Positions 17,435-38,490 of a DNA stretch of 64,000 nt are shown one piece after another; within the stretch, counting starts at the first letter, position 1; each line of letters starts with the position of its first letter. A model generated the notes under the pieces. The model saw nothing but the letters and a program-made list of their open reading frames with translations, was not told where the DNA came from and ran no database searches. This DNA comes from Nitrospira sp. (GTDB taxonomy: Bacteria; Nitrospirota; Nitrospiria; Nitrospirales; Nitrospiraceae): NCBI GenBank assembly GCA_024998625.1, contig JACOEL010000003.1, positions 62,001-126,000 of the forward strand, given 5' to 3'. A program made the position numbers and the translations under genes.

Positions 17435-17441
17435 GCAACGT

Positions 17442-19749: not shown

Positions 19750-19790
19750 GTATCTAACTAGATACAGGCTGTATGTCTTCAGATACAGGC
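19750..19790. promoter_or_regulatory. palindrome and 21-base-spaced direct repeat, possible operator
   Basis: GTATCT-AACT-AGATAC (19750-19765) is a perfect palindromic pair. AGATACAGGC occurs twice (19760-19769 and 19781-19790), exactly 21 bases apart, about two helical turns. The element overlaps the 3' end of the ribbon-helix-helix gene. The spacing and size would suit paired dimers of a small regulator, but binding is unproven. Confidence 0.3.
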
Positions 19791-20035
19791 GCCCGATTGG
19801 TTTTATTTGCGCGTGGACGACCTGGCTTCAAATCTTGGAGCCGCGGTGAAAAAGGGCGACCATTCTGCGACTCCAGATTGTGGAGGAGATCTTCGATCGC
19901 GGATGAAATGAGGCCGGCCATAGTGGTGCCCGACGTCCAATAGGCGGCATCACGCATGCGTTCCAGAAGTTCGGTCGGCAGGCTGACCGTCATACGTTGG
20001 CGTTTCTGGGATCGCAGATAAATAAATCGATTCAT
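19754..20035 (-). CDS. ribbon-helix-helix (CopG-like) regulator
   Basis: The product is a 93-residue basic protein. The N-terminal part (KRQRMTVSLPTELLERMRDAAYW, then a helix with TMAGLISSAIEDLL) has the strand-helix-helix pattern of ribbon-helix-helix DNA-binding proteins, which bind as dimers. The C-terminal half is Pro/Arg-rich and probably disordered. The ATG at 20035 is preceded at good distance by AAGGAG, which decides the start over an upstream codon at 20095. It lies just upstream of the TonB receptor genes on the same strand, and palindromic repeats occur at its 3' end, so local regulation is plausible. No toxin gene accompanies it. Confidence 0.7.
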   Translation of the reverse strand: MNRFIYLRSQKRQRMTVSLPTELLERMRDAAYWTSGTTMAGLISSAIEDLLHNLESQNGRPFSPRLQDLKPGRPRANKTNRAPVSEDIQPVSS

Positions 20036-20143
20036 GGTGCCACTCCTTTGCACGAAGCTACTGATGTTGAGCGCTTGGCTCGGCGCCTGTGTCATATCGA
20101 TGCGCGAGTTTGTGGCGCAGGGATATGGTCAGTGTAATGAGGT

Positions 20144-20540: not shown

Positions 20541-21272
20541 TCATGTAGGCAAATACACTCCGGACTGCTTCAAGAGGTGATGAAGCATTCGCTCCAACAA
20601 CGGTTTGTCCTCCTCATTGGTTATGAGGTCGAGCAGGCAGGCGATGGCGTCGTACCAGAGGCCGGATTCGGAATAGCGATAGATCGCGTCACGATCGCAA
20701 GAGGTCCATGTGCATGGCATGCCCAGCGAGCAGGCCTCACTATAGGGGATCCGTTCGATGGTTCCGCCTGCGACAACGTCCCGAGAAGGCTCATCCGGGT
20801 CCACGACCAACGTGACGAACCATCGGTAGGATTCCTGCTCCTTGAATTCAATTCCATATTCCCGAGGCCTGGTACAGTGGATGCCGGCATGAAGAGGTGA
20901 GGGCAGCGCGCGTTCAAGGATAGGCCGAATTCCGCGGGAGTCCACCACTGTAATGGTCATGGCGTGAGTGGTATGCAGAGACAGGTACCAACAGAGCGAC
21001 GGATCGCCTTTGATCGTAAAGCCGACATGATCCGGGACCAAGGCGATCAGCAGAGGAACTCCCGACTCGGCACCCCTGCTCTGCCCGCCGATGCGCGCTC
21101 GCGGCGCATGGTCTTTTCGCGGTTTATATAGGGGCATAGGCACGTCAGGATCCTTGACGAGGCTGGCCGCGCGCCCGTCCGGCAGTGTCGGCGAGAAGCC
21201 GACGGCGCTGCGCCAGCACATCGGCCACGTCATGGCAACGATAACCAACAGGGTGACTCTGAGGTAGAACAT
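20541..21272 (-). CDS. DUF928-type exported protein
   Basis: The 243-residue product has an N-terminal export segment (LRVTLLVIVAMTWPMCW). It has the DUF928 pattern: PRARIGGQSRG, LIALVPDHVGFTIKGDPSLCWYLS, an internal YRWFVTLVVDPDEPSRDVVAGG and a C-terminal GLWYDAIACLLDLI. DUF928 proteins are known mainly from cyanobacteria, where they neighbour CHAT and two-partner-secretion genes, as here. No biochemical function is established. It is paralogous to the next gene upstream and has 40 bases between. Two Cys pairs in the C-terminal half could form disulphides in the periplasm. Confidence 0.82.
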   Translation of the reverse strand: MFYLRVTLLVIVAMTWPMCWRSAVGFSPTLPDGRAASLVKDPDVPMPLYKPRKDHAPRARIGGQSRGAESGVPLLIALVPDHVGFTIKGDPSLCWYLSLHTTHAMTITVVDSRGIRPILERALPSPLHAGIHCTRPREYGIEFKEQESYRWFVTLVVDPDEPSRDVVAGGTIERIPYSEACSLGMPCTWTSCDRDAIYRYSESGLWYDAIACLLDLITNEEDKPLLERMLHHLLKQSGVYLPT

Positions 21273-21311
21273 CTTGCGCCGATCAATAGTTGGACGGACT
21301 CGCGCAACCTG

Positions 21312-22019
21312 TCAGCGCCGGTCGGCCTGGGCCTGCGCAAGATCCCATTCTGCCACGCCATGCAAGCCGACTTGCTTGAGCAAGGCTGCCCGCTGTTTTC
21401 GCAGACTCGTATCACCTGGATCGGAGGTAATGAGATCGCAGAGGCAGGCCATGGCGTCGTACCAAAAACCTGTGGCGGCACTGGTCCTCACTGTTTCCTG
21501 GGTGCAGGTGGTCGTGGCGCCCAATACCATACATTCGCTGAACTCGCAGCGTTCGATCATTCCGCCGGTCACGATATCGCGTGAGGGAGAGTTCTCGTCT
21601 TTGATCACGGAGATATACCACCGGTATTGAGTGTGTGCCTGAAGAGTGAAGCCGAGGTCTTCAAGGTTGACGGCTTGAACACCGGCGTGATTCGGGGGCG
21701 TGATGAACCGTTCAACGAGCGCGTGAATTGATCGCTCATCGATCAGGGTGAATTTAATCGGCAACGCCGTGTGCTTCGAAAGGTACCAGTTCAGAACCGG
21801 ATGTTGCCTGACCGTGATACCGACGTGGTCGGGAACGAGTGCGGCAATAGCGGGGTCTTCTCCTTCGTGGCCTCTCAGCGTCCCACCGATGCGAGCCCTG
21901 GGCATCACTTGCGGAGGCGCCTTGTACATCGGAATGTCCGGTTGTACTTCAGTGCCTGCCGCGATGCTGCTTGCGAACAGGGCCGCAAGCAGCACCGTTG
22001 CGCCTATTTTCCTGGCCAT
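21312..22019 (-). CDS. DUF928-type exported protein (paralogue)
   Basis: The 235-residue product has a clear signal peptide (IGATVLLAALFASSIAAG) and the same blocks as its neighbour: PRARIGGTLRG, IAALVPDHVGITVRQHPVLN, YRWYISVIKDENSPSRDIVTGG and GFWYDAMACLCDLI. The frame is open to 22103, but the ATG at 22019 sits right before the signal peptide and is preferred. It follows the CHAT gene on the same strand after a 160-base gap. A shared periplasmic role with the CHAT protein and the haemagglutinins is suggested by gene order only. Confidence 0.82.
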   Translation of the reverse strand: MARKIGATVLLAALFASSIAAGTEVQPDIPMYKAPPQVMPRARIGGTLRGHEGEDPAIAALVPDHVGITVRQHPVLNWYLSKHTALPIKFTLIDERSIHALVERFITPPNHAGVQAVNLEDLGFTLQAHTQYRWYISVIKDENSPSRDIVTGGMIERCEFSECMVLGATTTCTQETVRTSAATGFWYDAMACLCDLITSDPGDTSLRKQRAALLKQVGLHGVAEWDLAQAQADRR

Positions 22020-22181
22020 GCAGCTATGTGCCCATGTCGTCACGATGTCACGATCTCTTCGTGGTCGTTCGCAGGATCTTACCCATCCGCCTCTCGCCTG
22101 CATGGGCAGGCGTATTTCCCGTGGCCGTACGTTGAGGGTCTAATCGATGGCAATGCCGATGATGAACTTTTCAACATCCTG

Positions 22182-24494
22182 CTAGAGCCAATTGTTTAAC
22201 AACAGAAAGGCCGACCAATACGCCGGATGTTCATAGAGCTGTTCGGACAGTAGCTTCAGCTGTGCAAGCTGCAAAGCACGTGCCTTTGATATCGAGGAGT
22301 CATGCAAGTGACGATAAAATTCTGAAACCAGTTCCGACGACGCTTCATCGTTAATGAACCAGAGGGTTGCGAGGGCACTCCTGGCTCCCGCCTTCACCGC
22401 AATGCCGGCAAGCCCGAGCGCAGCACGGTCGTCGCCGATACCGGTCTGACAGGCGCTCAACGTGAGGAGTTCCAAGGGATCTTGGCGAAAGCGAAGCAGC
22501 CCCACCAGTCGCTCCAACTGCGTCATGGTCAGTCGATCGTCGAATGTCAGCAGAAATGATTGATTCACGTCCGTGGCGAATTGTCCGTGCGTGGCAATGT
22601 GGAGAATGTTGTAGCGGCCATCCTTCAATTCTCCTTCCAGGCGTGGCGTGACAAAGTTGTGGTCGAGGAGTTGCTCGCCCTTGAACAGCGAATGAATGTG
22701 CTCCATCTCTTCGGCGACATGCGGGAGAGGAGGAAAGCCCTGTACCGCCTTGGTCAAACCGCTGGATAGAAGTTGGGCTCTGGATCGATTGATGGGTTGA
22801 GGGTCAGTCAAATCAAGGCCGGGGGTCATTGCGACGGCGTACTGTGCGATAAGGAATTGGTTGCCGTCATGGAGGGCCGACATGGGAACGGTGCGAAGCG
22901 GTCCGTCCGGGACAAAGACCAGCGTGTTGACCTTGAGTTTGCGAAGGTCCCCCAACAGCGGCCGGAGCAACCAGTCATACAATTGCTGAGCATGGGGCAG
23001 GTACTCGCGGGTCGTCCGCTTTTCAAGCATGCGGCGGAAGCTGCGTATCTCGGCGGTCAGCGCAGACGCCGTCACCGGAACAGAGTGTCTTCTGAGACCG
23101 TCCGGGAAGCTCACGAGCAGTTCGGTACGATCGCTGAAAATGATCGGGTAAATGATGGCCGTGGCCGGAGACACGGCATCCAGCTTGGTCAGTCGAGCCT
23201 GTATCTGGTCCACACAATCATCGCGGAAATAATCCCGAAGCTCGGCAGCCTTGTAAGCCTCGATCGCGTCGCGCGCCGCTCTTAAATAGGGGTCGGCTTC
23301 AGAAGCATCGCTCATCAACGCCGCCCGTTGCAGCAGCAGATCGGCCAACTCGAAATACAACGAACGAATCGATCGGTGGTCAGGCTCCAGCGAGGTTTGC
23401 GACGCGAAGGCCACTTCGGCGCGGATCGGTTGCAGGGTGGCCGCCGCCTCTTGATAGGCAGACAATGCGTCATCCAGCTTGCCCAAACGGGTGAGGAGAC
23501 GACCACTTTGCCATTGCCAACGGTAGAGTGATTCAGGCGCACCGGCGGACTGCGCAGCAAAGACAGCTCGTCGGGTGAGTCGGAGGGCTTCATCTAAACG
23601 GCGTTCCCCCTCATAGAGATGGCCGAGGTGCCCATAGGCATAGGAGGCGAGGCGCGTATCGCCGGACTCCCCCGCCGCGGCAACCGCCTCTTGCAGCAGT
23701 GCCGCGGATTGTGTCACCCCGCGCGCATGATCATCCGGCCGCCCCGTCGCAAGGTCGCGATACCCCAAAGCCAGATTGATGAGTTCATCGACCTTGTCGT
23801 GCGAAGCCGGCGTGACTGACAGCTGCTTGTCGGCCTCACTCAAGGCCGCTGCCGCCTCATCAAATCGGTTCAACCGCATCGCCACCCGCGCAGCGTTGAC
23901 GCGAGCGCGCACGAAGAGCATGTACAAATTTTCCTCCGTCGCGCTTGTCGCGCTGTCTTGGAATGCGGCCAGCGCTTCAGGAAGACGGTCCTGTAGCGCT
24001 AGGACAATGCCGAGGTCATTCCGGATCGCCGCCGAAAGCGTTCTGAGATTCCGTGTCTGCGCAATCCCGGCCGCCTGGGACAAATAGTCCGCAGCCGTGT
24101 CGTATTGATGGCTCGTCACATAGGTTTTCCCCAACTCGGAGAGGGTGAGCGTCAGCCATGTGGGATCGCCCATTTTGCGGGCGAGTTGTAAGGCCAATTC
24201 CTGTTGCAGGAAGGCCTGGTTGATATGCCCCAATGCACGCGCTGCGTAAGCGGCATGGGAGAGCGCCTGAATGTGTCCCTTCGCCTGGCCCGCCTGTTCG
24301 TACAGTTGCGCGGCTGCTTTCCAGTCGACGAGCGCCTGCTCCAAAGCGCCCTGCTGCGCAGCGGAGCGGCCTCGCTGCATCAGCTCATCGGCCGACGGCC
24401 CGGCTTCTGTGGCGTATGCCACCGTACCGGAGAGCAGGAGCATGATCCCCAATCTGAGCACCGCCTGAAGTGATCCACGAAGCCGTGATGCCAT
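22182..24494 (-). CDS. exported TPR-CHAT caspase-like protein
   Basis: The 770-residue product starts with a Sec-type signal peptide (AVLRLGIMLLLSGTVAYA). About nine or ten TPR-like helical pairs follow (residues 35-420), then a CHAT domain (about 440-770). The caspase-clan dyad is visible: His636 in LHIATHGQF and Cys682 in LLTLSACQTGIGDDRA. AGIAVKAGARSALATLW also matches the CHAT C-terminal block. CHAT domains belong to the caspase-like peptidases, and some are proven proteases activated through their TPR part. The signal peptide would place this one in the periplasm. It lies 30 bases from the TpsB gene, so control or processing of TPS exoproteins is the natural hypothesis, not yet a demonstrated one. 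Confidence 0.92.
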   Translation of the reverse strand: MASRLRGSLQAVLRLGIMLLLSGTVAYATEAGPSADELMQRGRSAAQQGALEQALVDWKAAAQLYEQAGQAKGHIQALSHAAYAARALGHINQAFLQQELALQLARKMGDPTWLTLTLSELGKTYVTSHQYDTAADYLSQAAGIAQTRNLRTLSAAIRNDLGIVLALQDRLPEALAAFQDSATSATEENLYMLFVRARVNAARVAMRLNRFDEAAAALSEADKQLSVTPASHDKVDELINLALGYRDLATGRPDDHARGVTQSAALLQEAVAAAGESGDTRLASYAYGHLGHLYEGERRLDEALRLTRRAVFAAQSAGAPESLYRWQWQSGRLLTRLGKLDDALSAYQEAAATLQPIRAEVAFASQTSLEPDHRSIRSLYFELADLLLQRAALMSDASEADPYLRAARDAIEAYKAAELRDYFRDDCVDQIQARLTKLDAVSPATAIIYPIIFSDRTELLVSFPDGLRRHSVPVTASALTAEIRSFRRMLEKRTTREYLPHAQQLYDWLLRPLLGDLRKLKVNTLVFVPDGPLRTVPMSALHDGNQFLIAQYAVAMTPGLDLTDPQPINRSRAQLLSSGLTKAVQGFPPLPHVAEEMEHIHSLFKGEQLLDHNFVTPRLEGELKDGRYNILHIATHGQFATDVNQSFLLTFDDRLTMTQLERLVGLLRFRQDPLELLTLSACQTGIGDDRAALGLAGIAVKAGARSALATLWFINDEASSELVSEFYRHLHDSSISKARALQLAQLKLLSEQLYEHPAYWSAFLLLNNWL

Positions 24495-24524
24495 TTCACA
24501 CCCTTTCCGCCGCGGTCGTCTCGT

Positions 24525-26285
24525 TTACAGTGCCTGCACGACGAACTGGAGATGGATGCCGTGATCCTGCAAATTTCCCTCGCCGCCCCGGACGTGATTA
24601 AGTTGCTGGCCCCAGTAGACTTCGAACCGCGCACGTTCTTGGGGCAGAATGGTCCAACGTAATCCGACTCCCACGCTCGCCAACGTGTGAGGATCAGGGG
24701 TGTGCCCTTTGGCGTTCCAGGCCCGTCCGAAATCGACGAATTGGGCGAACTGCAGCCGATCCTCGCCGGAAGCGAATCGGAGCAGGGGAACACGCGATTC
24801 AAATGACGCCAGCACGGCGTCGTCCCGCACGAGCGTGTTTTCCCGATAGCCGCGCACACTGAAGCGTCCGCCGACGGGCATTTGTTCGAGAGGGAAGAGC
24901 CGGTCATTGGCGATCTGCGCGGCCACGCGTCCCAACAACTGGATGCCCCACCATTCCTCTACACGTTTCACCGCCTGAGCTTGGCCCAACCAGGATACAA
25001 ATTGACCGTCCGGCAGAGGCCCGCTATTGATGGTGGCGCCCAGGACGTTCAGTCCGACGCTGAATCGGGACAGGGCGGCAAACACAAAGGAGGGAGATCG
25101 ATGTGTATATTCCTGGCTGAATCGGAGTGCGCTGACGGTGGCCACCCCGGTCGTGGAAGAACCCGGAATGAAGAGTGACGGCAGGCCCGGTACGTCGAAC
25201 GCAGACGTCGTTTTGAGATATAAATGTTCGCCGCTCAGAGAGAGTGCGACCTCGTCGTTCACGGTGCGGTAGACAGGTTGGCGTAGGGCGACACCGATGA
25301 TTTCGGAATCCACATTCAGATCCAAGGAGCGGAAGGGATTCTCGACGACCAGAAAGGCGTTGCGCCGATAGTAGGCCGTGAGGGTCGTCTCGTAGGCATT
25401 GAGCGGCACACTGTAGGACGTATCGATGATGGGGTTCACGCCGTGAGACCGTCCATAGGTGAACATAAATTGGTCGCCGTGACCCGTCACATTCTGGTGC
25501 GCCACCGTCGCGAGCCCACGCTCAGCGCCGACGACCGGCGTTTGATAGTTGTTGAACTCCAGCCAGGCTTTAAAGGGGTTGGCGTCTTTCACGCGTAAGT
25601 TCAGGACGCTTTCACCACGAATGTCTCCCGGTCTCAGCTCGGCATTGATCCGTTCGATGCGCGAATCCTGCTGGAGTAATTGGATTCGTTCCTGGAGCGG
25701 CTGGATGCTGACGGGAGTACCAATGCCGCGCGCCACACGATCGCGCAGATACGAACTGCGGAACCATTGGTTGCCTTCCACGTCGATTCGAGAAAGGGTT
25801 CCTTCGACGATCTGAATGATGATGGTCCCGAAGGTGACATCTTGGTCGGGAATGACGGCCCCGGATGTGAGATATCCTCTATTGACGTATAAGAGGGTGA
25901 GGGCCAGGCGAACCCGCTCTAGATCTTCCGTGGTCAACTCACGATTGCGATAGGGAGCGATGACGTCGGCAATCTCTGCTTCAGAAAACACGGTACTGCC
26001 GGTGACATGAATGTCATGGACGAACACTCGAACGGATCCCAATCTGTTCTCGAACGGCCTTTGCGGCGCGGGCGACACCTCCGGAAGGATTGGGCTCGGG
26101 GGAGGAGTCTCCGGCGCTTTGAATTCTTCCCTCAACGGAGCAGGAGGTTTCCCCGACCGGCCGGTCGGATCAAAAATCGGAGGAAGCGGCGGCGTGACCT
26201 GTGCCGTGGCCGGAACTTTCATGAGGCAGATGCCCACTAAAACACCTATGCACAAAGGTCGGATATTAAAGATCCCGCAATGCAA
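24525..26285 (-). CDS. ShlB/FhaC/HecB-type two-partner secretion transporter (TpsB)
   Basis: TpsB proteins are Omp85-type barrels that export their TpsA partner across the outer membrane. This one is 586 residues. An export segment and a Pro-rich linker precede a first POTRA (about 88-165: VHDIHVTGSTVFSEAEIAD, LYVNRGYLTSGAVIPDQDV), then a second POTRA with IEGNQWF-like DVEGNQWFRSSYLRDRV. The barrel carries the essential loop-6 VRGY motif (GRFSVRGYRENTLVRDD, near residue 475). The start is a TTG at 26285 with GGAAG upstream; a later TTG or GTG is possible. It lies 38 bases from the last TpsA gene and is the only TpsB for three TpsA genes. Confidence 0.93.
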   Translation of the reverse strand: MHCGIFNIRPLCIGVLVGICLMKVPATAQVTPPLPPIFDPTGRSGKPPAPLREEFKAPETPPPSPILPEVSPAPQRPFENRLGSVRVFVHDIHVTGSTVFSEAEIADVIAPYRNRELTTEDLERVRLALTLLYVNRGYLTSGAVIPDQDVTFGTIIIQIVEGTLSRIDVEGNQWFRSSYLRDRVARGIGTPVSIQPLQERIQLLQQDSRIERINAELRPGDIRGESVLNLRVKDANPFKAWLEFNNYQTPVVGAERGLATVAHQNVTGHGDQFMFTYGRSHGVNPIIDTSYSVPLNAYETTLTAYYRRNAFLVVENPFRSLDLNVDSEIIGVALRQPVYRTVNDEVALSLSGEHLYLKTTSAFDVPGLPSLFIPGSSTTGVATVSALRFSQEYTHRSPSFVFAALSRFSVGLNVLGATINSGPLPDGQFVSWLGQAQAVKRVEEWWGIQLLGRVAAQIANDRLFPLEQMPVGGRFSVRGYRENTLVRDDAVLASFESRVPLLRFASGEDRLQFAQFVDFGRAWNAKGHTPDPHTLASVGVGLRWTILPQERARFEVYWGQQLNHVRGGEGNLQDHGIHLQFVVQAL

Positions 26286-26323
26286 TTCGACTTCCTATCC
26301 GCCGGAACGCCAGGCTCAAGAGG

Positions 26324-29300
26324 TCATGAGCGACAACCTGCCGGCCATTCACTGACACCATGTTGTGGTAACGGACCAAGACGATCCGTCGCCTGCGCTG
26401 AGCGCACCAGCGCCTGTTGCACAGATAGAGAGGAGGAGCTTGTAGACTCATGTGTCGGTTGAGCGGAGTCTTCGTCGGCAAACATCGGGGCACTCAGGAG
26501 CCATCCGCCCGGTTCTGCAGGAAGAGTATCCCGCCCTGCCAGGGCGAGGCTGCTCAAGTGACCATTCGCCTGTGCGGCGCAACGCTGAGTGAGTAGCGGT
26601 TGTGCGTGCAGTGGGCGTTGCGGCAGCGTGGCCAAGGTGTTGCTTAAGCTAGACACGGGGGATTGAATGTTCACGCTGCCGCTCAAGCCGAATTGGGATG
26701 ACGCACTCACGACACTGCTCTGGTCGGCCAAAAACGTTCCCGCGACAATGCTGATGTTGCCGCCTTGCCCTTGCACGGCTTGGGCGAGGATTTGACTGTT
26801 CTGGAGCGTTACAACTGCCGGATCGAGCGTGATGTTACCCCCGGCGGTGGTCGGCCCGCCTTGGACCGAGGTGCTGAGTCGACCATTGATGAATCGGATC
26901 GAATCGATCGCCTGAATAAAGATATTGCCGCCGCTGGCCCGGTTGGCTTCCGTCGTGACGGACACGTTTTGACCGAGGAATCGAGGCCCGGAATTGATGG
27001 TAATGTTGCCGGCATTACCAAGACCTGTGCTGCTGGCGGAAAGGAGGGCCCCGTCGCTCACCGTGACGGATTCAGCCGCGTTCAGCGAGACGTTGCCGCC
27101 GCTCCGAGTTCCTCTGGAAAGGGCGGAAATTCCCCCACCCTCCACCAAGATGTTTCCAGCCGTCAGATCAATATTGCCGCTGTGCTCCTGGCCGTTCACG
27201 GACTGTGGCCGCAAGTCCGTCACATTGGCGGATATATTTGTATTGCGCAGTTCCAGTGGACCCCGCGCGCGCATCTCTATTCTGCCCCCAAGACCAATGC
27301 TGCTCGTGTCGGTCGATACATCGGTTCCTGACAGGCGGATGGTCGTGGAAGGAGGGTAGGGAACATCGTCAGGGATGGGCCCACTTACACCGGTGATACT
27401 GATCATACCCGCACCGCCGGTGCTGCCACTGTTGCTGGAAATGACCACTCTGGAGGGATCGGCGGCATCCAAGACCCTGGGTGCCGCCAGCGTCCCTCCC
27501 GGTCTGGTTCCAGGCCTGGTGGTCAATACATCGGAGTGCAACTCAATGCGGTTGGCAATCCGATTGCCTTGCGTGGGGGCAATAATCCCTCCCCCGGTGA
27601 TGTCCAAGTTCGTCGCAGACAGGAGCAGGCTGCCCTGGACACTCCGGCCGTCCGTGAGAACTGGGCCTGCCTCCCCCGCGCCCACGACATCGATCAACCG
27701 GCCCTGGGAATCCAGAACGTTCGTCACATTGTTCACTTGTGAGTTCACGACGGAATGGTCGAGGATGATATTGTCGCCTCTGATTCTCAGATACCCAGGT
27801 AACCCTTCGTGCAGCGCTTCGACCGTGACTTCCGAATTGGTCAACTTCACCGTATCGGTGGGAGCATCCGGATACGGGGCATCCCACACAGCGCCGAATG
27901 AAAAGTAGTGATCCTTGATAATCTTCGTGATGCCCGCTTGAGCCCGTCCATGTCCCGTATTCGTGATCAAGGAGTTGTCGGCTATGAAGGAATGCTCGGC
28001 CCGCAACCAGATCTCACCTGCACTCGGACCGCCCTGACAGAGCGGGCATGACCCAATGTCCGATACCTCGGCATTGGCTGTGATGGTACTGTCTTTCAAG
28101 GCAATATCCCGGCCCATGATATCGATTCGGCTGAAGCCCTGGTTCTGCGCGGGCTGCCCGTTGGGTTTATTGTCATTGATGGTGAAGTCTTGGGTTGTGA
28201 CTGAGACGCTGGAGTCGACCAACGATGCCTGCCCGTTCGTCCTCATCATCACGATCCCGCCCGGCGCGTTGCCGATGGCGTCGGAATGGATCTCCGTGCC
28301 ACGTATGTCAAACGCTCGCGCGAAATAATAGGTGATGGCTCTGTTGGGCTCAGAATCAGGGGCGGTGACGTGTCTGTACAGTCGCGTATTCGGAGGGGTA
28401 ACGCCAGGAATACCTTGAAGAGTAATATAACCGGCCTGCCCCCCGACACATCGGCCGCCGCAGTTACTATCGCTTGAAATCAGGACGCGTCCGTCCGGAC
28501 CGGATTGGGTTTTCAGCCGATCCACATTCATCGTGATCGCCCCGGCATCCGCTCCACCCGTGGTGTCCGCCCGTACGACGGTTCCGTTTGCCAGCTCAAC
28601 CTGTCGAGCCGTGATCTCAATGTTGCCGGGCGCCACAGTGGGTATTGCCGCACTGGTCACGCCTGTCACGATATGGGAGTTGCTTAGCCAGATCGCATCA
28701 GCCGGTTCCCCTGCCTTTCCTGCAAAGGCAATCGATCCGGCTCCGCCCTGTCCCGTACTCGTGCTCGCGATGGTTACCGGTGCGGCGCCAAGGAGAGGAC
28801 GGCCGTCCGCTCCGACATTGCTGCGCAACGTGCTCACCTCAAAGCTGATATCCCCTGCCGTGCCGTCGATGGCGGAGGTGAGGACATTAGAGCCGTGCGA
28901 CAGGGTCACGTGATCCGCCTGGACAGAGATCCCTCCTGCTGTTGAGGCAGAGGGTGCGGTATTCGGGGCGATAGCCGTCGCGCTCGCTTCCAGCCGGGAA
29001 CCGTCCATGGTGAATTGACCGCTACGAATCACAATTCGTCCTGCGGTAGGTGCGCTCGTCGTAACGGTTGATCCTTGCGCGAGTGAAATATTTCTCAGGG
29101 TCGTAAACCCGTTCAACGTCGGGTCGGTGGGCGGGGCTACTGTCCCGGTCGTCAACACTTCTCCAGCCGAGCCGACAGCGACGAGATTGATTTGGCCGCC
29201 GGGGGCCGCCAGGCGAGCAGGTTGTGCGGTTCCATTCGGGAGCGTCCCTCCGGTGATCTCGATATTCCCGCCTGCCAGCGAAATACTGTGCCCCTCCGCG

Positions 29301-29908: not shown

Positions 29909-29950
29909 AGGACTCTTTTATGATCGTACGTTCTATCTATCCGGCAGTCG

Positions 29951-32900
29951 TTAGGACTTACAGCCCATTGTCCAGTCGGATGCACCTCGTTGTGATGAGA
30001 AGCCCAGTCGGGAGGACGATACTTGTTCTGCCGGCCCCTGTTCTGAAATTTCGTGGGAGTAGCCGGTGACCGGCTCGGCCTCTTGGGCAACGACCTCGTG
30101 AGGCATGAAGGCCATGGGACTCAGGAGCCATCCGCCCGGTTCGATGGGCAGGGTGTCTCTCCCCGCGATCACCAGGCTGCTCAGCCGACCGTATGCCTGT
30201 GCGGCACAGCGTTGCCGCAGGAGATTGTGGACGTGCAGCGGTTGCTGCGGCAGCGTGGCCAAGGTTCCGCTCAAGCTGGACAGGGGCGATTGAATAGTCA
30301 CTGTGCCGCTCAACCCGAGTTGAGATGACGCACTCACGACGCTGCTCTGATCGGCCAGAAATGTTCCCGCGACGATGCTGATGTTGCCGCCTTGCCCTTG
30401 GACAGCCTGGGCGAGGATTTGACTGTTCTGAAGCGTGACAACTTCCGGATCGATCATAATATTGCCGCCGGCCGTGGTCGGACCCCCCTGAACCGACGTA
30501 TTGAGCTGGCTGTTCACGAGCCGGATGGATTCGACAGCCTGGATCGTAATATTCCCGCCGCTGGCCTGACTGGATTGTGTCGTGACGGAACCATTCTGGC
30601 TGAGAAACTGATTTCCGGCATGGATGACGATGTTACCGGCATCCGCCGAACCGGTGTTGCTGGCTGAAATTGTTGCACCGTCGCTCACTGAGATCGGTCC
30701 TTGAACGGTGACAATGATATTGCCGCCGTTCTGAGTTCCTCTGGAAAGTGCAGAGACGCCTCCTCCTTGTATCGAGAGGCTGCCGGCCGAGACGTCGATA
30801 TTTCCCCCTTGCTCCTGCAGGTTTATAGACTGCGGCCTCACATCCGTCACGTTGGCTGAAATGGTGGAGTCGTGCAGTTCGACAGGGCCTCTGACTTTCA
30901 GAAGGATCTTTCCGCCCAGCGCATCGATATTGGTGTTTGTGAGCAGATCGGTTCCGCTTAGACGGATGGAAGCCCCTGGTGGTAAGGGTGTATCCCCGCG
31001 TGCCGGTGGCCTTAGGCCGCTGATAGAGATCATCCCTGCACCGCCGCTGCCGGTGCTACTGCTGGAGATGACCACGCGAGTAGGATCATCGGGGTTTAAT
31101 ATTTTTGGCGCAGCCAGTGTCCCCCCCGGCCCAGTTCCCGGCCGGGTGATCAGTTCATCGGTTTGTAACTGGATGCGGCTGGCGATTCGACTGCCCTGAG
31201 TTGGCGCGACGATCCCTCCTCCGGTGATGTCCAGGATTTTCGCGGAAATAAGTGTGCTCCCCTGGACGTCTCGGCCATCTGTACTCACAGGACCCCGTTC
31301 ACCCGCGCCGACGACGTCGAACAATTGACCTGCGGAGTCCCTGACATTGGACACATCATTGGCGCTGGAGTTCAGGATGCTATGATTGAGCATGACCTTG
31401 TCGGCCCTGATTCTGAGGTAGCCGGGAAGCCCGGAATGGAGAGCTTCGACCGTGACCTCGGAATTGATGAGACGGACGGTGCCTGTCGGTCGATCAGGGT
31501 AAAGGGTGTCCCAAATGGCGCCTTCGGTGAAATAGTTATCTCCAATGATCTTTGTAAGGCCCGCCTGAGCCCTCCCTCGACTGGTATTGGTAATAAACGA
31601 ATTGTTGGCGGTCACCGAATGATCAGCCCGCAACCAAATCTCCCCTGCGGTTGGTCCTCCCTGGCACGTAGGGCACGTGCCGATGTCAGATACCAGCGCG
31701 TCCGCCTTGATGGTGCTGTCATTCAGGACGATGTCCGATGACATAATATCGATGTTACTCAGCCCCTGATATCGTGCGGGTTGACCGTTGGGTTTCGTGC
31801 CGTCCAGGTAGAAGTCTTGCGTCGCAACTGAAATGCTCGTATCCGTTAACGATACCTGCTCTTGCCCCCGCATGATCACTTTTCCGCCGGGGGCATTACT
31901 CGTGGCTTGCGAATGGAGATCCGTACCCTGCATGTCGATCCGTCGCGCAAAATACAAGGTCAGCGGATCTGTGCGCCCAAGTTGGGGTGTGAAGATAAAT
32001 GAGTAGTTTCGCGTGACGCTATGCTCGGCGTCATGAAGACCTTGAATCGTAATATCGCCGGCTTGTCCGCCGAAGCATTGGCTTCCACAATTGCTGTCGC
32101 TGGAGAACAATACACGTCCGTCGGGCCCTTCTTGTGTTGTGAGCGTATTCACGTTCAACGTGATCGCCCCGGCATCCGCCCCCCCGGTGGTATCCGATCG
32201 CAAAACAGTGCCGTTCGATAACTCGACCTGCTGTGCCGTGATCACAATGTCACCAGGGGCCACCGTTGGGTCGGCGGCATTGGTGACGCCTGTGACAATA
32301 TGGGTATTGCTCAGTAGAACCGCGTCAGCGGGGCCTCCTGCCTGGCCCGTAATGGAAATCGATCCGGCTCCGCCCTGTCCGGTACTCGTGCTCGCGATGG
32401 TTACCGGTGCGGCGCCAAGGAGCGGACGGCCGTCCGCTCCGACATTGCTGCGCAACGTGCTCACCTCAAAGCTGATATCCCCTGCCGTGCCGTCGATGGC
32501 GGAGGTGAGGACATTAGAGCCGTGCGACAGGGTCACGTGATCCGCCTGGACAGAGATCCCTCCTGCTGTTGAGGCAGAGGGTGCGGTATTCGGGGCGATA
32601 GCCGTCGCGCTCGCTTCCAGCCGGGAACCGTCCATGGTGAATTGACCGCTACGAATCACAATTCGTCCTGCGGTAGGTGCGCTCGTCGTAACGGTTGATC
32701 CTTGCGCGAGTGAAATATTTCTCAGGGTCGTAAACCCGTTCAACGTCGGGTCGGTGGGCGGGGCTACTGTCCCGGTCGTCAACACTTCTCCAGCCGAGCC
32801 GACAGCGACGAGATTGATTTGGCCGCCGGGGGCCGCCAGGCGAGCAGGTTGTGCGGTTCCATTCGGGAGCGTCCCTCCGGTGATCTCGATATTCCCGCCT

Positions 32901-33535
32901 GCCAGCGAAATACTGTGCCCCTCCGCGACAGCAAGCTGACCACCTTGCACAGCAATTGCTGCCGAATTGGACCCCAGAAATCCAAACGCCGCTATCGGTG
33001 CGCTGGAGATGGCGGCATCCTGCGGGCCGGGGAGCGCATGAAACTGCGCGCCATCCGCAAACCGCAAATAGTCAGCCGTGGTGAAGCTCACCGACCCGCC
33101 GACATTCAACGACGCATTCGGGCCGAACACGATTCCGGCCGGATTCATCAAGAGTAAATTGGCGCTGCCGAAGCCGGTCGTCTGGATGGTTCCGAAGATG
33201 TTGGAAGGATTACCGCCGGTGACGCGTCCAAGAATGTTCGAAGTGGGCAACGCGGTCTCGTTCAGGAAGTTGGCGATGTTGCCGGTGGGCACGCCGAATT
33301 CGCCGAAGCTGTGAAAGAGATTCGGCCCGCTGCCAGGGCGAGTGCCGCCGGTGATGTCGTACACATTGCCGTTTTTTGTGACGGTCGTATTCAAGCCCGA
33401 GGAGGTGATGGGGGGGAGCGCTTGGGCGTGGCCCATCCCAGGCACGGACGATTGGATCAGCCAGCTGGCGAGCAGTGTCGCGCCCAGTAATGGGTGGCGC
33501 TCGGGACTGGAGCCGGTCCGAAGTGCACTCAACAT
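29951..33535 (-). CDS. filamentous haemagglutinin-like exoprotein (TpsA), copy 2
   Basis: This is also 1194 residues. A signal segment (LLGATLLASWLIQSSVPG) leads into the TPS domain (NLFHSFGEFGVPTGNIANFL, NIFGTIQTTGFGSANLLLMN, PAGIVFGPNASLNVGG). The beta-helix body and the C-terminal LLRQRCAAQAYGRLSSLVIA and LPIEPGGWLL block match the other copies. GAGG lies 7 bases before the ATG. It is a tandem duplicate of copy 1, with more divergence in the middle and 3' parts than in the 590-base identical tract. The 179-bp inverted-repeat element lies 30 bases upstream, so this gene may have its own expression control. A likely cell-surface adhesin or structural fibre; the target is unknown. Confidence 0.92.
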   Translation of the reverse strand: MLSALRTGSSPERHPLLGATLLASWLIQSSVPGMGHAQALPPITSSGLNTTVTKNGNVYDITGGTRPGSGPNLFHSFGEFGVPTGNIANFLNETALPTSNILGRVTGGNPSNIFGTIQTTGFGSANLLLMNPAGIVFGPNASLNVGGSVSFTTADYLRFADGAQFHALPGPQDAAISSAPIAAFGFLGSNSAAIAVQGGQLAVAEGHSISLAGGNIEITGGTLPNGTAQPARLAAPGGQINLVAVGSAGEVLTTGTVAPPTDPTLNGFTTLRNISLAQGSTVTTSAPTAGRIVIRSGQFTMDGSRLEASATAIAPNTAPSASTAGGISVQADHVTLSHGSNVLTSAIDGTAGDISFEVSTLRSNVGADGRPLLGAAPVTIASTSTGQGGAGSISITGQAGGPADAVLLSNTHIVTGVTNAADPTVAPGDIVITAQQVELSNGTVLRSDTTGGADAGAITLNVNTLTTQEGPDGRVLFSSDSNCGSQCFGGQAGDITIQGLHDAEHSVTRNYSFIFTPQLGRTDPLTLYFARRIDMQGTDLHSQATSNAPGGKVIMRGQEQVSLTDTSISVATQDFYLDGTKPNGQPARYQGLSNIDIMSSDIVLNDSTIKADALVSDIGTCPTCQGGPTAGEIWLRADHSVTANNSFITNTSRGRAQAGLTKIIGDNYFTEGAIWDTLYPDRPTGTVRLINSEVTVEALHSGLPGYLRIRADKVMLNHSILNSSANDVSNVRDSAGQLFDVVGAGERGPVSTDGRDVQGSTLISAKILDITGGGIVAPTQGSRIASRIQLQTDELITRPGTGPGGTLAAPKILNPDDPTRVVISSSSTGSGGAGMISISGLRPPARGDTPLPPGASIRLSGTDLLTNTNIDALGGKILLKVRGPVELHDSTISANVTDVRPQSINLQEQGGNIDVSAGSLSIQGGGVSALSRGTQNGGNIIVTVQGPISVSDGATISASNTGSADAGNIVIHAGNQFLSQNGSVTTQSSQASGGNITIQAVESIRLVNSQLNTSVQGGPTTAGGNIMIDPEVVTLQNSQILAQAVQGQGGNISIVAGTFLADQSSVVSASSQLGLSGTVTIQSPLSSLSGTLATLPQQPLHVHNLLRQRCAAQAYGRLSSLVIAGRDTLPIEPGGWLLSPMAFMPHEVVAQEAEPVTGYSHEISEQGPAEQVSSSRLGFSSQRGASDWTMGCKS
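32424..33013. repeat. 590-base tract identical to 28797-29386
   Basis: This is the second member of the identical pair, in TpsA copy 2. The flanks are only moderately similar, so the identity is local and not gene-wide. The two tracts are in direct orientation 3627 bases apart and could recombine to delete one gene length. Confidence 0.85.
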
Positions 33536-33564
33536 AAAGCCTCGCTCTCTCGATCGGCCGCTTC

Positions 33565-33743
33565 TAGCCCGGACTATTCATGAATGCCTGCTCCGTCGTC
33601 CGATTCTCTCGCCCGGCGGGGCTGTTCTCGTTCGGCCTCCTCGACGGACTGTCAGTACGCCTGCGTCGGCCTCGCTTGCGAGAAGCCCCGGCGGGCTTCG
33701 GTCTCGAACGCCTCGCGACGACATTCATGAATAATCCGGGCTA
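33565..33743. mobile_element. 179-bp MITE-like element with 22-bp terminal inverted repeats
   Basis: The left end (33565-33586, beginning TAGCCCGGACTATTCATG) and right end (33722-33743) are inverted copies with one mismatch in 22. The interior is GC-rich and partly self-complementary (CCCGGCGGGGCT on the left, GCCCCGGCGGGC on the right), so the whole element can fold into a long hairpin. No coding sequence fits inside. It sits between TpsA copy 3 (stop 33753) and copy 2 (start 33535), so on the transcript it may act as a terminator or attenuator. No transposase is encoded in the window. Confidence 0.75.
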
Positions 33744-33752
33744 GGGCGGCTC

Positions 33753-36617
33753 TTATGACCCACAGCCGGTTTCTCGGTCCCATGCACCTCGTTGTAGTGG
33801 CGAGTCTCTTTGATCAAACAAATCTCTCGCAGGATCCTGGTAATGGCTTGAGAGCTCGAAGATTTGATTGGTGGCCAAGTGAGCTTGGGGGGCGGACGCA
33901 TCGTCAGCCATCCCCGCCATGGGACTCATCAGCCAGCCGCCTGGTTCAACGGGGAGCGCATCTCGCCCTGCCACCACGAGGCTGCTCAATCGACCGCTTA
34001 TTTGCGCAGCGCAGCGCTGGGTGAGCAGCTGCTGCGCTTGCAGGGGGCGTTGTGTCAGCGTGGCCAACGTGCCGCTCAAACTGGACAGGGGCGATTGAAT
34101 ATTCACCGTGCCGCTAAGACCGAACTGAGACGACGCGCTCACGATGCTCGTCTGGTCGGCAAGAAAGGTCCCTGCAACAATATTGATGTTGCCGCCTGCG
34201 CCCTGCACGGCTTGCGCTAGTACCTGACTGTTCTGCAGCGTGACGATAGCCGGGTCGAGGGTGATGTTGCCGCCGGATGTAGTGGGTCCGCCTTGCACCG
34301 ATGTGTCGATATGGCTGTTGATGAGCCTGATCGCATCGGTGGCCTGAACAAGAATATTGCCGCCGCTGGCTTGGCTGGCCTGTGTGGTCACGGAGCCATT
34401 CTGACTAAGGAACTGGGCTCCGGCATTGATGGCAATGTTGCCGGCATTGGCTGGCCCGGCACTGCTGGCGGAAACAGAGCCCCCATTGTTTAAGGCCACA
34501 GAATCAGTCGCTACGACTGAGATATTGCCGCCGATTCCACTAGCAGCTGTTCCTGAAGTTGAGGCAGAGATTGTTCCTCCATTTTGAATCGTTATAGATT
34601 GGGCGACCACATTCACATCGCCGCCTTCACCGATGCCTTGGGCGTCAGTGAAGATACCGCTTCTCTGGCCGTCAATCAGCAATGAGCGCGCCGGTCCGGC
34701 AGGGCCTTGGATAGTGATGGTTCCGCCCGCTCCGGTCGGGATCTCCCTTGTAGGAGCCGGAGGAACAGGCTGTATTGTGCTCCCGCTTCTGATCTGTCCC
34801 CCATCCGTTAGTCGTACAGTCTCGGCAAAAATGTTGAGAGTTCCTCCCTGTCCGGAACGAAAAGTCTCGCTTGAAAGCCTACTACTTCCGGTAATGAGAA
34901 CGTCCTTGGCCGTAATAGTAAAATCAGCGGCGGCGGCCCCGGACCGACTCCGTGAGACAGGCGAAATAGAGGAACCGTCGCGTAAGGTTAAATTGCCGGA
35001 GAGTGCCACTATGATGTTGCCTGGTTGCATCGGGCCAAGATTGTCATCCGTTATATTGCTGTTACCTATCAAGTCGAGATTATTGGCGGATATTTCAATA
35101 CCACCGCCTGAGCCAGCCCCACGCGTCGCAGAAAACAGTTGCCCGTCAGCCATGAGGATGTTTCCCTCTCGTGCACTTACCAAGATGTTTCCCGTGTTTC
35201 CTGTCGTTTCTTCCGTTTGGGAAGTGACGAAAGAAAAGTTCTTTATCACAACATTTTCGTGCAGTGATCGAAGCTCTATATTGCCCGCATTACCTGACCC
35301 GAAGAACGAATTTGTTGTAATCTCAGCCGAATCAACCGCAAGTCTATTTCTGGCTACTAATATGATGTTACCCGCATTACCACCTGCTTCTGTCGCAGCT
35401 TCAAGTATCGCTGCATTGATCAGAATCGAATTGGCCTCTAACTTGATATCGCCGCTACTACCGCCCGTGCTCCCCTCGAGGACGTTCGATTGGATAATCG
35501 TGAATGACTCGGATTCTGGAACACCGATCATTTCGATGCGATCTGCTCTCACGCGTACTCCGCCTGATCCGACACCAGGAGAGGCATTTTCCGTTACATT
35601 TGTTTCGAGCGTGGCACCGTTCTGAATCACCACGTTCTGATTCACGTGAAGATCAATGCCCTCGCCAGGTGGGAGCCCAAGCTGGGCGTTTGGCGCAGTA
35701 AAGTTATTTGCCGAGATCCGTGAATTGTCGATTATAAAGCGGCCACTCCGAATCAGGACGGTACCGCCGCCATCACCGCTGGCATCGATGACCGAGTTTT
35801 GTAAGGCCTGGACTTCCCCGAGCGTTCCAAAGGATTGCCCATTGATATTGAGCCCCTGGTCCAACGTTCCCATCGCGAATTCACCTGGTGATTTAGCGCT
35901 CGCAAGATAGATCTGACCGCCGGACGCTGACAGTTGAGCGGGCTGAACGGTGTCGGTGGCAAGCGTAACTCCTTCAATCGTGATGTCCCCGCCGACGAGT
36001 GAGAGCGCGTGCCCATCTATGACTGCCAGCTGCCCGTCCTGAACGGTAATGGTGCCGGGGTTCGATCCCAGGAATCCAAAGGCGGCCACCGGCGCGCTGG
36101 AGATGGAAGCGTCTTGTGACCCAGGAATCGCATGGAACTGTGCTCCGTTCGCCAAACGCAAGTAATCGGCCGTCGTGAAGGTCGCCGATCCGCCGACGTT
36201 CAACGATGCAGTCGGCCCGAAGACGATCCCGGCCGGGTTCATTAGGAATAGATTGGCGCTGCCGAAGCCGGTGGTTTGAAGGGTGCCGAAGATGTTAGAA
36301 GGGTTGCCGCCGGTGACGCGTCCAAGAATGTTGGAAGTGGGTAGAGCGGCGTCGTTCAAAAAGTTGGCGATATTGTTCGTGGAAACGCTGAATTCGCCGA
36401 AGCTATGAAAGAGGTTGGCCCCGCTCCCCGGTCTGCTGCCACCGGTGATCTGATAGGTGTTCCCCATTTGCGTGACAGTAGTACCTAGGTTACCGACACC
36501 CGTGGTGGGAGTGACCGTTGCGGTTCCTTGTGCCAGAGTGAGCGACCCTTGTGCACTAGGCCAACAGAGAGATAGAACCACTATGGTCCAACGAATGGAT
36601 ACGACGACACGGTCCAC
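33753..36617 (-). CDS. filamentous haemagglutinin-like exoprotein (TpsA), copy 3
   Basis: The product is 954 residues from the chosen GTG at 36617, which has AGAAGGAG about 7 bases upstream. An in-frame start at 36659 would place that ribosome binding site inside the gene. A short signal segment (WTIVVLSLCWPSAQG) precedes the TPS domain (NLFHSFGEFSVSTNNIANFL, NIFGTLQTTGFGSANLFLMN, PAGIVFGPTASLNVGG). A beta-helix body and the shared C-terminal block (LLTQRCAAQISGRLSSLVVA, LPVEPGGWLM) follow. It is more divergent than copies 1 and 2 in the middle and lacks the identical tract. It is separated from copy 2 by the MITE-like element. Confidence 0.9.
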   Translation of the reverse strand: MDRVVVSIRWTIVVLSLCWPSAQGSLTLAQGTATVTPTTGVGNLGTTVTQMGNTYQITGGSRPGSGANLFHSFGEFSVSTNNIANFLNDAALPTSNILGRVTGGNPSNIFGTLQTTGFGSANLFLMNPAGIVFGPTASLNVGGSATFTTADYLRLANGAQFHAIPGSQDASISSAPVAAFGFLGSNPGTITVQDGQLAVIDGHALSLVGGDITIEGVTLATDTVQPAQLSASGGQIYLASAKSPGEFAMGTLDQGLNINGQSFGTLGEVQALQNSVIDASGDGGGTVLIRSGRFIIDNSRISANNFTAPNAQLGLPPGEGIDLHVNQNVVIQNGATLETNVTENASPGVGSGGVRVRADRIEMIGVPESESFTIIQSNVLEGSTGGSSGDIKLEANSILINAAILEAATEAGGNAGNIILVARNRLAVDSAEITTNSFFGSGNAGNIELRSLHENVVIKNFSFVTSQTEETTGNTGNILVSAREGNILMADGQLFSATRGAGSGGGIEISANNLDLIGNSNITDDNLGPMQPGNIIVALSGNLTLRDGSSISPVSRSRSGAAAADFTITAKDVLITGSSRLSSETFRSGQGGTLNIFAETVRLTDGGQIRSGSTIQPVPPAPTREIPTGAGGTITIQGPAGPARSLLIDGQRSGIFTDAQGIGEGGDVNVVAQSITIQNGGTISASTSGTAASGIGGNISVVATDSVALNNGGSVSASSAGPANAGNIAINAGAQFLSQNGSVTTQASQASGGNILVQATDAIRLINSHIDTSVQGGPTTSGGNITLDPAIVTLQNSQVLAQAVQGAGGNINIVAGTFLADQTSIVSASSQFGLSGTVNIQSPLSSLSGTLATLTQRPLQAQQLLTQRCAAQISGRLSSLVVAGRDALPVEPGGWLMSPMAGMADDASAPQAHLATNQIFELSSHYQDPARDLFDQRDSPLQRGAWDRETGCGS

Positions 36618-36673
36618 GATGGGATCTCCTTCTGACTCTGTAACTAGCGTGAGAATCATCCTCCAGCGTGCGA

Positions 36674-37162
36674 TTATTGAGACTGCTGTGGGAAAGACTC
36701 CTGCTTACTGGTTTTGCCGGACTCAGACACGAAATCAGTGCACATCAATCGTGACTGTATGGTGAGTCGCCCGCACTCGCCGGGCCTTCTATTTTGGAAC
36801 TTCTGCGGATCTGTGACAGGAAACTCCAACCGCCGCGCATCATGTTGAGCCGTAAAAAACGCTTTGCCGCTTGCTGTATCAAATCGTTCGAAACATACCT
36901 TCTCGCCCTCAAGACCTGTTTCACATGAGCAGCCACACTTGCAGCCGGCAAAGCACTGTCCACACGGACAGCAGTTGGTCATGTGAGACGGTTGGACCTC
37001 GGTCGCTGACCGCATACCTGCGGACGGCGAGGCGGTCTCTGTCTCATACATGTCCGTTGTTTTTTTTAACTCTAGGAAAGAGATTTTCTCTTTGTAAGAG
37101 GATGCACAGCCGGAGAAGAGTCCAATTACAAGAACGGCATAGAGAAGGGAGACTGGAAACAT
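36674..37162 (-). CDS. Cys-rich probable lipoprotein
   Basis: The 162-residue product has a signal segment ending LFSGC, a lipobox-like site for lipidation at Cys. The mature part contains eight Cys within 19 residues (NCCPCGQCFAGCKCGCSCE), with CxC and CxxC spacing like small metal-binding proteins, and then two further Cys. I know no characterised homologue. AGGAGG lies 7 bases before the ATG at 37162, which decides the start over a GTG two codons earlier. It precedes TpsA copy 3 by 56 bases and follows the metzincin-like gene by 32, so all three probably share a transcript. Metal storage or a disulphide-rich knot are both possible. Confidence 0.75.
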   Translation of the reverse strand: MFPVSLLYAVLVIGLFSGCASSYKEKISFLELKKTTDMYETETASPSAGMRSATEVQPSHMTNCCPCGQCFAGCKCGCSCETGLEGEKVCFERFDTASGKAFFTAQHDARRLEFPVTDPQKFQNRRPGECGRLTIQSRLMCTDFVSESGKTSKQESFPQQSQ

Positions 37163-37194
37163 GACCACACCTCCTTGGGAAGGTTTCTTGCCTA

Positions 37195-38490
37195 CTACTC
37201 TTTCCCACGCTTGCGATAGTATTCGGACAGGCCTCGTTCCCGAACCAATTTGTTGGTCCGCATAGCTTCTTGTACTAAAGGTCCGACTTGGCGCTGAAAT
37301 TTCTCCGCAGAATCAGAGGAGGCTGGCTGTTTCATTGCTTCCAGCGTCTTGCTTGCTTCCTCGGAACCCGATAAAGCCAACCCCAGGATAGCCATGCTGC
37401 TAAGTTGTTCGTCGCGAGCGGTCATGCTCGCCTGGAACGGACTCCGCCACAATACCTTCTTTTCCTCTTGCCACTTCTGCGGGTTCACCTTGTTCTGCAA
37501 ATACGACAATGCTTTCAGACTCTTGGCCTTATTGACCAGATAGCCAAGTGCAACAATCGCGCTGGTCTTTGCCCTATACTGCGCCGGAGAAATGGCTTCA
37601 TCGCCGTTGCCTTCTATGAACTGTATGAGACGATCAGGGGTCTGCTCGTCTCCTATGATTCCTAATACGACGACAATATTGGCCCAATATTCTTGTTCGC
37701 CTTCATCATTTAGCATTTCAAATAATGTTGGAACATCCTCCAGGCCAAATTTCCTCGCCTCCTCGTAAGGAACGCCGTGGATGAAGACTTGGCGTACAAA
37801 TTCCCGAACGGTTCGGGACCGCTTATCGCTAGCCTGTTGCAAGTCATACGAAGGGCTGGGTGAATCAGTGGCAGCTGCATGTATCGAAGCTATCTTATAG
37901 TTAGTGCACTCTTGTGTGGTAAGGTTCGTTCGGGTCGGACTTATTGTGGGATTCATGACAGCATCCGGATTGTCTCTATGCTGTAATCCTTTGTTATGAC
38001 CATATTCATGAAGCCACAAAATCCCTTCCAATGTCGGTTGATATCGGACCACAACATAGGAATCTCCTGGAATAGGGGCACAACCTAGGATGTTGGGAGC
38101 TACACCGCCACACCAGTTAATTTGGTTCAGCACCTTTACATGACCTGGTTGGTGCATCAGGTTATCAAGATCCTCGGGACTATTAACTATATTGGGAGAC
38201 ACAAAGATGGTTATGCCCCCATCTCTGATAAGCCCAATGTCACAAGCTGTGTCATGGGCTACTTGAGTGGCAAGGGAGAAGATCGCATCGGCTCCTGAAT
38301 CATTAAATGACAGGGAATCGTGTCGGCTAACTTTCAACTTGTACGCATTAGGCGGTGTCGGCTGCGTATCGGTCGTAGGCGTAGGATCTTCTTTTCGGAC
38401 CTCTTCTGATGAACATCCGATCGTAACAATCAGCATTGATGATAGGAGAACCCTGATGAGCGCCAGCTTGATCCAATGTAGGAGTCCCAT
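37195..38490 (-). CDS. metzincin-like metalloprotease lipoprotein with HEAT-like C-terminus
   Basis: The 431-residue product has a signal segment ending VTIGCSSEE (Cys26 as candidate lipid site). The zinc-binding motif is HEYGHNKGLQH (His161, Glu162, His165, His171), the extended HExxHxxGxxH of metzincins, followed by a Met-turn AVMNPTI (Met179). The catalytic domain (about 60-195) has four Cys. The C-terminal half (about 235-400) is a series of helices with HEAT/armadillo-like spacing (TLFEMLNDEGEQEYWANIVV, IVALGYLV, SMAILGLALSG). AAGGAG precedes the ATG at good distance. It heads the minus-strand TPS cluster. A periplasmic or surface-anchored protease acting on cluster products is plausible, and the sequence does not exclude unrelated substrates. 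Confidence 0.8.
   Translation of the reverse strand: MGLLHWIKLALIRVLLSSMLIVTIGCSSEEVRKEDPTPTTDTQPTPPNAYKLKVSRHDSLSFNDSGADAIFSLATQVAHDTACDIGLIRDGGITIFVSPNIVNSPEDLDNLMHQPGHVKVLNQINWCGGVAPNILGCAPIPGDSYVVVRYQPTLEGILWLHEYGHNKGLQHRDNPDAVMNPTISPTRTNLTTQECTNYKIASIHAAATDSPSPSYDLQQASDKRSRTVREFVRQVFIHGVPYEEARKFGLEDVPTLFEMLNDEGEQEYWANIVVVLGIIGDEQTPDRLIQFIEGNGDEAISPAQYRAKTSAIVALGYLVNKAKSLKALSYLQNKVNPQKWQEEKKVLWRSPFQASMTARDEQLSSMAILGLALSGSEEASKTLEAMKQPASSDSAEKFQRQVGPLVQEAMRTNKLVRERGLSEYYRKRGKE

Follow-up and report, generated by a model that had tools for sequence, protein, structure and literature searches.

Within a 64,000-nucleotide stretch of the genome of a Nitrospira sp. (GenBank assembly GCA_024998625.1, contig JACOEL010000003.1, positions 62,001 to 126,000; hereafter, the window), nine open reading frames (ORFs) at 20541-38490 lie on the minus strand with intergenic gaps of 14-217 bp, forming the collinear cluster that an earlier note made from the sequence alone had outlined. 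In the order of transcription, these genes encode a metzincin lipoprotein, a Cys-rich lipoprotein, three TpsA proteins and the TpsB transporter of two-partner secretion (TPS), a TPR-CHAT protein and two DUF928 proteins. The association of the exporter with a caspase-like protease and a helper protein probably represents a genuine addition, so far undescribed, to an established secretion pathway. The Pfam scores are far over the cut-offs for DUF928 (82 and 120 bits), CHAT (191 bits), ShlB and POTRA_2 (96 and 82 bits) and the TPS domain (138-141 bits), and the TPR of the TPR-CHAT protein is confirmed by Pfam as well. The features of the locus are the following.

37195-38490, minus strand: metzincin lipoprotein with the motif HExxHxxGxxH and a downstream VMNP, joined at the C-terminus to a HEAT-like part (ORF; Pfam M10, 24.8 bits)
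36674-37168, minus strand: small Cys-rich lipoprotein, lipobox FSGC, an orphan (ORF)
33753-36659, minus strand: TpsA3, 968 amino acids, TPS-domain secreted beta-helix protein (PF05860, 138 bits)
33753-34130, minus strand: C-terminal two-Cys tail of TpsA3, LLTQRCAAQ..SSLVVAGRDALPVEPGGWL ... GCGS (tail hidden Markov model, HMM)
29951-33535, minus strand: TpsA2, 1194 amino acids (PF05860, 141 bits)
29951-30328, minus strand: C-terminal two-Cys tail of TpsA2 (tail HMM)
26324-29908, minus strand: TpsA1, 1194 amino acids (PF05860, 138 bits)
26324-26701, minus strand: C-terminal two-Cys tail of TpsA1 (tail HMM)
24525-26285, minus strand: TpsB, POTRA domain and ShlB/FhaC-type Omp85 transporter (PF08479, 82 bits; PF03865, 96 bits)
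22182-24494, minus strand: predicted exported TPR-CHAT protease, 770 amino acids (PF12770, 191 bits; signal peptide; AlphaFold2 model)
22587-22589, minus strand: codon of the catalytic His636 (kept in 105 of 105 aligned CHAT domains)
22449-22451, minus strand: codon of the catalytic Cys682 (likewise kept in 105 of 105)
21312-22103, minus strand: DUF928 protein b, predicted immunoglobulin (Ig)-like beta-sandwich and TPR-like hairpins (PF06051, 120 bits; AlphaFold2 model)
20541-21272, minus strand: DUF928 protein a (PF06051, 82 bits)

The N-termini of the CHAT, DUF928 and TPS proteins of the window are signal-peptide-like, as judged by a hydropathy heuristic rather than by SignalP, and the true start of DUF928 protein b is probably an internal ATG at about 22019. 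The three TpsA proteins contain no Pfam domain besides TPS, and their C-termini are the conserved tails. The genes for TpsA1 and TpsA2 share 79% nucleotide identity over the first 2.4 kb (blastn), with some stretches identical at the protein level, and are products of tandem duplication, perhaps together with gene conversion. The 4.4 Mb source genome encodes three CHAT and four TPS genes; at a second locus (L031, G000:C36:32000-51000, positions 6037-11900), TpsB is followed by a short TpsA (430 amino acids) and a TPR-CHAT protein (824 amino acids), with no DUF928 gene, and similar pairs of a short TPS protein and a CHAT protein recur in many genomes of the genus.

We surveyed the genomic context of DUF928 genes in the phylum of the window (296 genomes) and in cyanobacteria, with the addition of one match on a Gemmatirosa plasmid. 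In the phylum, DUF928 is present in 64 genomes, all of which also encode CHAT and 61 of which encode TPS. Among the 57 phylum DUF928 loci with neighborhoods read, CHAT (within about 10 kb) is found at 51, TpsB at 45, TpsA at 47, and all three together at 44; with about three CHAT genes per 4.4 Mb genome, the presence of a nearby CHAT gene at 51 of 57 loci excludes chance. The commonest gene order is TpsA-TpsB-CHAT-DUF928. About 20 arrangements, including inversions, were detected in the phylum, and the genes stay together through all this shuffling, which therefore points to selection for linkage and not to a mere lack of rearrangement. The linkage extends over five families within the phylum and to numerous cyanobacteria, so that the expectation of the earlier note that CHAT, DUF928 and TPS genes co-occur beyond close relatives is borne out. 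The cyanobacterial sample comprised DUF928 matches on plasmids and 80 named genome loci, 88 loci in all, with a cyanobacterial DUF928 alignment as the scan query; within about 10 kb, CHASE2 is present at 69 of these loci, CHAT at 37 and TPS at 21. Across the cyanobacterial genomes, DUF928 and strong TPS matches occur together in 59, DUF928 alone in 1, TPS alone in 2, and neither in 132, figures that we give as counts because shared phylogeny inflates significance. It appears highly likely that the TPS, CHAT and DUF928 genes constitute one functional module.

The TPR-CHAT protein consists of a signal peptide followed by TPR and then by the CHAT domain. The dyad of His636 and Cys682 is invariant in all 105 CHAT domains aligned over this region, in agreement with the earlier note, which had named Cys682 as the CHAT cysteine, and most cyanobacterial orthologues can be aligned over their entire length, with 31-36% identity (21% in one case). 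The AlphaFold2 model (predicted local distance difference test, pLDDT, 83) resembles Csx29 of Craspase with a Z score of about 30 and, in its peptidase domain, separase (Z 23, 3.7 Å over 308 residues). The combination of an intact dyad with an exported-type N-terminus, which upholds the signal peptide proposed in the earlier note, argues for a predicted working extracytoplasmic protease. An assignment to a defence system was rejected: PADLOC matches the CHAT protein by its TPR only, and its Pycsar-cyclase matches of the companion cyclase were read as shared cyclase homology rather than as defence. Two cyanobacterial CHASE2 proteins of about 780 amino acids (L097, 6466-8817; L133, 7511-9838) carry a divergent CHAT domain at the N-terminus (scores of about 51-53 bits).

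A C-terminal tail, captured by the tail HMM, is common to the CHAT-linked TpsA proteins; it follows the consensus LL..rCaa...g..Ssf...gRd.lP..Pg..l.sp and has its last Cys close to the terminus. Of the 69 phylum TpsA with a nearby CHAT gene, the three of the window included, 66 carry this tail, and the remaining three are fragments. Among the phylum TpsA without a nearby CHAT gene, 5 of 22 carry the tail; four of these five belong to genomes in which CHAT is found at another locus, and the fifth (G249) comes from a genome with a CHAT gene. A Cys is found in the last 15 residues of 63 of 71 and 22 of 23 tail-bearing TpsA, compared to 2 of 17 others, and at least two Cys are found in the last 150 residues of 66 of 71 and 22 of 23 tail-bearing TpsA. 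A stop-broken TpsA gene (L205, 955-3771) was observed in a genome that also has several unbroken copies of TpsA. We tentatively propose, as a plausible reading that falls somewhat short of probable, that the TPR-CHAT protein is a dedicated extracytoplasmic protease that would recognize the TpsA tail and thereby mature, release or gate TpsA.

Three single-chain proteins combine an N-terminal TPS domain with a C-terminal CHAT domain, two from cyanobacteria and one from the phylum of the window (L105, 10005-15557; L107, 14699-18361; L203, 9333-13409). The occurrence of this architecture in both phyla places CHAT outside the cytoplasm, on the TPS route. None of these fusions has the two-Cys tail. 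That of L203 is encoded directly downstream of a TpsB gene, as would be expected if CHAT were a surface-delivered effector or an adhesin-linked protease that acts outside the cell, with the TPS system as its carrier. This possibility seems very unlikely, however: the fusions are rare and probably arose only once, judging from the TPS-domain tree, and the common form of CHAT starts with an ordinary signal peptide and lacks a TPS domain, so that export through TpsB is not expected.

The AlphaFold2 model of DUF928 (pLDDT 80.6) combines an Ig-like sandwich with TPR-like hairpins, and its best structural match is MtxA (PDB 4z29; Z 9.8, 4.1 Å, 150 residues, 12% identity), the only solved structure that spans both parts of the model; the next match reaches Z 6.9 over 96 residues. 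MtxA of Magnetospirillum is a periplasmic protein with a signal peptide and Ig-like and TPR domains, and its gene is followed by that of a CHASE2-adenylate cyclase (PMC4439547); an L-x-x-G-x-x-Y tyrosine-corner pattern discussed in the same paper is present in DUF928. Outside the window, the nearest recurring neighbor of DUF928 is a CHASE2 sensor-cyclase: a gene for a CHASE2-guanylate/adenylate cyclase adjoins CHAT and DUF928 at 12 of the 57 phylum loci, in other families and at some second loci of the family of the window. No CHASE2 gene is present at the window locus. From these models and contexts, we propose that DUF928 acts in the periplasm as a partner of CHASE2 sensors and would have been kept with TPS-CHAT where the CHASE2 gene moved or was lost. 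At six loci (L036, L037, L038, L039, L042 and L048), DUF928 occurs without nearby CHAT or TPS, so DUF928 has other contexts, too. A CHASE2-cyclase-DUF928 fusion with a weak DUF928 match (30.6 bits) is encoded on the Gemmatirosa plasmid (L096, 6805-9579), with three more CHAT genes nearby; its membrane-like segment ahead of the DUF928 part would put that part back outside the inner membrane.

The frequent presence of CHASE2, with the cyclase beside CHAT and DUF928 at those 12 phylum loci and CHASE2 at 69 of the 88 cyanobacterial loci, could alternatively mean that CHAT is a quality-control or stress executioner that degrades stalled TpsA or mounts a lethal response to a jammed TpsB, with DUF928 and the CHASE2-cyclase as the sensor arm. 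Such a role would fit with the behavior of other TPR-CHAT proteins, which are triggered effectors (Csx29), and with the response of sll1891 to acid stress (PMC5587647). We consider it unlikely, given that the window locus lacks a CHASE2 gene and contains no toxin or immunity gene, and that its CHAT protein has no PADLOC match beyond TPR.

Returning to a maturation protease that recognizes the tail, the observed genes, their conserved linkage, the export signals, the intact dyad and the conservation of the tail, along with the predicted folds, are compatible with the following scheme. TpsA would be exported by Sec and then through TpsB, so that its C-terminus, that is, the last beta-helix rung and the tail (LL..RCAA..G..SSF..GRD.LP.EPGGWL.SP ... 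with the Cys near the end), would reach TpsB last and might be held in the periplasm, by analogy with HMW1 and HxuA. The exported TPR-CHAT protein would bind the tail and cut either the tail itself or the preceding segment, and this cut would determine the fate of TpsA, either continued tethering or maturation and release. DUF928 would be a periplasmic Ig and TPR partner of the MtxA type that ancestrally reported to a CHASE2 sensor-cyclase, the gene for which would have left the locus in the family of the window. A fuller and widespread circuit in the envelope, in which the periplasmic separase-like protease processes TpsA via the tail while the MtxA-like DUF928 protein reports the state of export or processing to the CHASE2 sensor-cyclase, thus joining surface display to cyclic-nucleotide signaling in cyanobacteria and the phylum of the window, is speculative and on balance rather doubtful.

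A conserved, sorting-like C-terminal tail on many paralogous cargo proteins, together with the clan CD fold of the enzyme, also brings to mind PorU, a caspase-like protein that attaches type IX cargo at the surface. CHAT could similarly be a sorting transpeptidase or anchor enzyme that reads the tail and couples TpsA to some component of the surface. This appears quite improbable because CHAT is predicted to be soluble and periplasmic rather than located in the outer membrane, its closest folds are plain endopeptidases, and the tail is missing from the fused TPS-CHAT proteins.

Several observations weigh against the tail-directed protease and its proposed partners. On the TPS-domain tree, most of the tail-less TpsA belong to one clade, so that the correlation of the tail with CHAT might reflect one ancient event, consistent with a CHAT-tail pair but not independent proof of it; the tail and CHAT might both go back to a single deep inheritance, with the correlation largely following a single TpsA lineage. 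The latter pattern would also suit a mere co-inherited envelope island without direct biochemical coupling, an improbable explanation for a linkage that outlasts about 20 rearrangements and two phyla and for the near-perfect match of presence and absence in cyanobacteria. The tail Arg was considered as an invariant cleavage site and dropped, since family f2 has DSKSDSVAPTPG instead, which leaves the tail with no recognizable cleavage site. The terminal Cys is missing at four deep-branching TpsA loci, so a disulfide anchor is not universal; the three TPS-CHAT fusions cluster together on the TPS-domain tree; and the link between DUF928 and MtxA is structural only, and sequence profiles do not retrieve 4z29. 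Finally, CHAT and TPS occur without DUF928 at the second locus of the source genome (L031), and DUF928 is therefore dispensable.

Of the two lipoproteins that the earlier note had included in the cluster, the metzincin has a real, if rare, link to TpsA, and the Cys-rich protein remains an orphan, with no Pfam or NCBIfam match and no homologue in 60 relatives. Neither was found at the other DUF928 loci of the family of the window that were inspected. The metzincin of the window has the zinc motif HEYGHNKGLQH and the invariant downstream VM, and its Peptidase_M10 score of 24.8 bits is borderline relative to the cut-off of 24. Whole-genome searches, which overturned our view that it was confined to the window, detected homologues in 5 of the 296 genomes, namely, the window genome and four of family f2, which is not the family of the window. 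In the three f2 genomes that were read, the metzincin and HEAT-like proteins are encoded by separate genes directly upstream of a tail-bearing TpsA, and the window protein is a fusion of the two; for the fourth f2 homologue (G229:C2:52983), a TPS match follows after about 2 kb. The metzincin is thus a rare, optional accessory. At six loci of a sister genus (L086, 18294-19220, and five others), TpsA is preceded by the gene for a papain-fold cysteine protease of C70/C39-like type and by a companion gene, making this protein another candidate TpsA-associated protease, and a short subtilisin-like ORF was noticed between two TpsA genes (L220, 12541-13416). Downstream of DUF928, the window (8841-20095) encodes a conserved 113-residue protein without a Pfam match, two TonB receptors, a multi-PAS response regulator, an ABC_sub_bind protein and a histidine kinase, a set that is also found downstream of DUF928 at many loci of the family.

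The secretion components themselves are those of two-partner (type Vb) secretion, as in FhaB/FhaC, HMW1 and HxuA, with the same TPS-domain TpsA (PF05860, three times), the POTRA and Omp85 TpsB, and adjacent genes. The two-Cys C-terminus of the window-type TpsA is similar to the anchor of HMW1 and HxuA, and by this analogy a disulfide loop is predicted; the Cys spacing in HMW1 is far narrower than in the CHAT-linked tails. In HMW1 and HxuA, the C-terminal disulfide anchor is held in the TpsB pore, and known TpsA maturation proteases, such as SphB1, are not encoded in TPS operons (PMC5422565), whereas the window locus encodes a predicted dedicated protease. In Csx29 and separase, too, a TPR superhelix precedes a caspase-like peptidase with a His/Cys dyad; in contrast, the TPR-CHAT protein is predicted to be exported and has TpsA, TpsB and DUF928 as partner genes, not Cas7-11/gRAMP, RNA or cohesin, and no Cas protein was found among the flanking window genes scanned. 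MtxA (4z29) has a signal peptide and the two-domain fold predicted for DUF928, and a CHASE2-cyclase gene such as the one beside mtxA adjoins DUF928 at some loci but not at that of the window. Contact-dependent inhibition and other polymorphic toxin systems combine a variable toxin C-terminus with an immunity gene, unlike the conserved tails of the window TpsA. A WD40 survey reported cyanobacterial clusters with the same adjacency of DUF928 and CHASE2, and CHAT is absent from that paper (PMC5587647). In the open literature searched, DUF928 appears in a single paper, and no publication pairs DUF928 with CHAT, or the CHAT domain with two-partner secretion or ShlB. As the earlier note had supposed, no description of the system was found there: the route of secretion, the fold of the protease and each domain taken singly are known, and what was not found described in that literature is their combination, the tail and the connection of DUF928 with MtxA and CHASE2. 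New here are the two-Cys tail, the TPS-CHAT fusions, the likeness of the DUF928 model to MtxA and of the CHAT model to Csx29 and separase, and the rare TpsA-linked metzincin.

If the proposed scheme is correct, two-partner secretion would gain a dedicated protease and a sensing partner, and a protease of the separase/Csx29 type would be placed in the periplasm with a predicted substrate. DUF928 would be given a fold together with an initial clue to its function, and a possible explanation would be at hand for MtxA, the deletion of which has no phenotype in the reported assays. Given the many TpsA in cyanobacterial genomes (3-64 TPS matches per genome in eight genomes), the consequences for surface biology could be wide-ranging.

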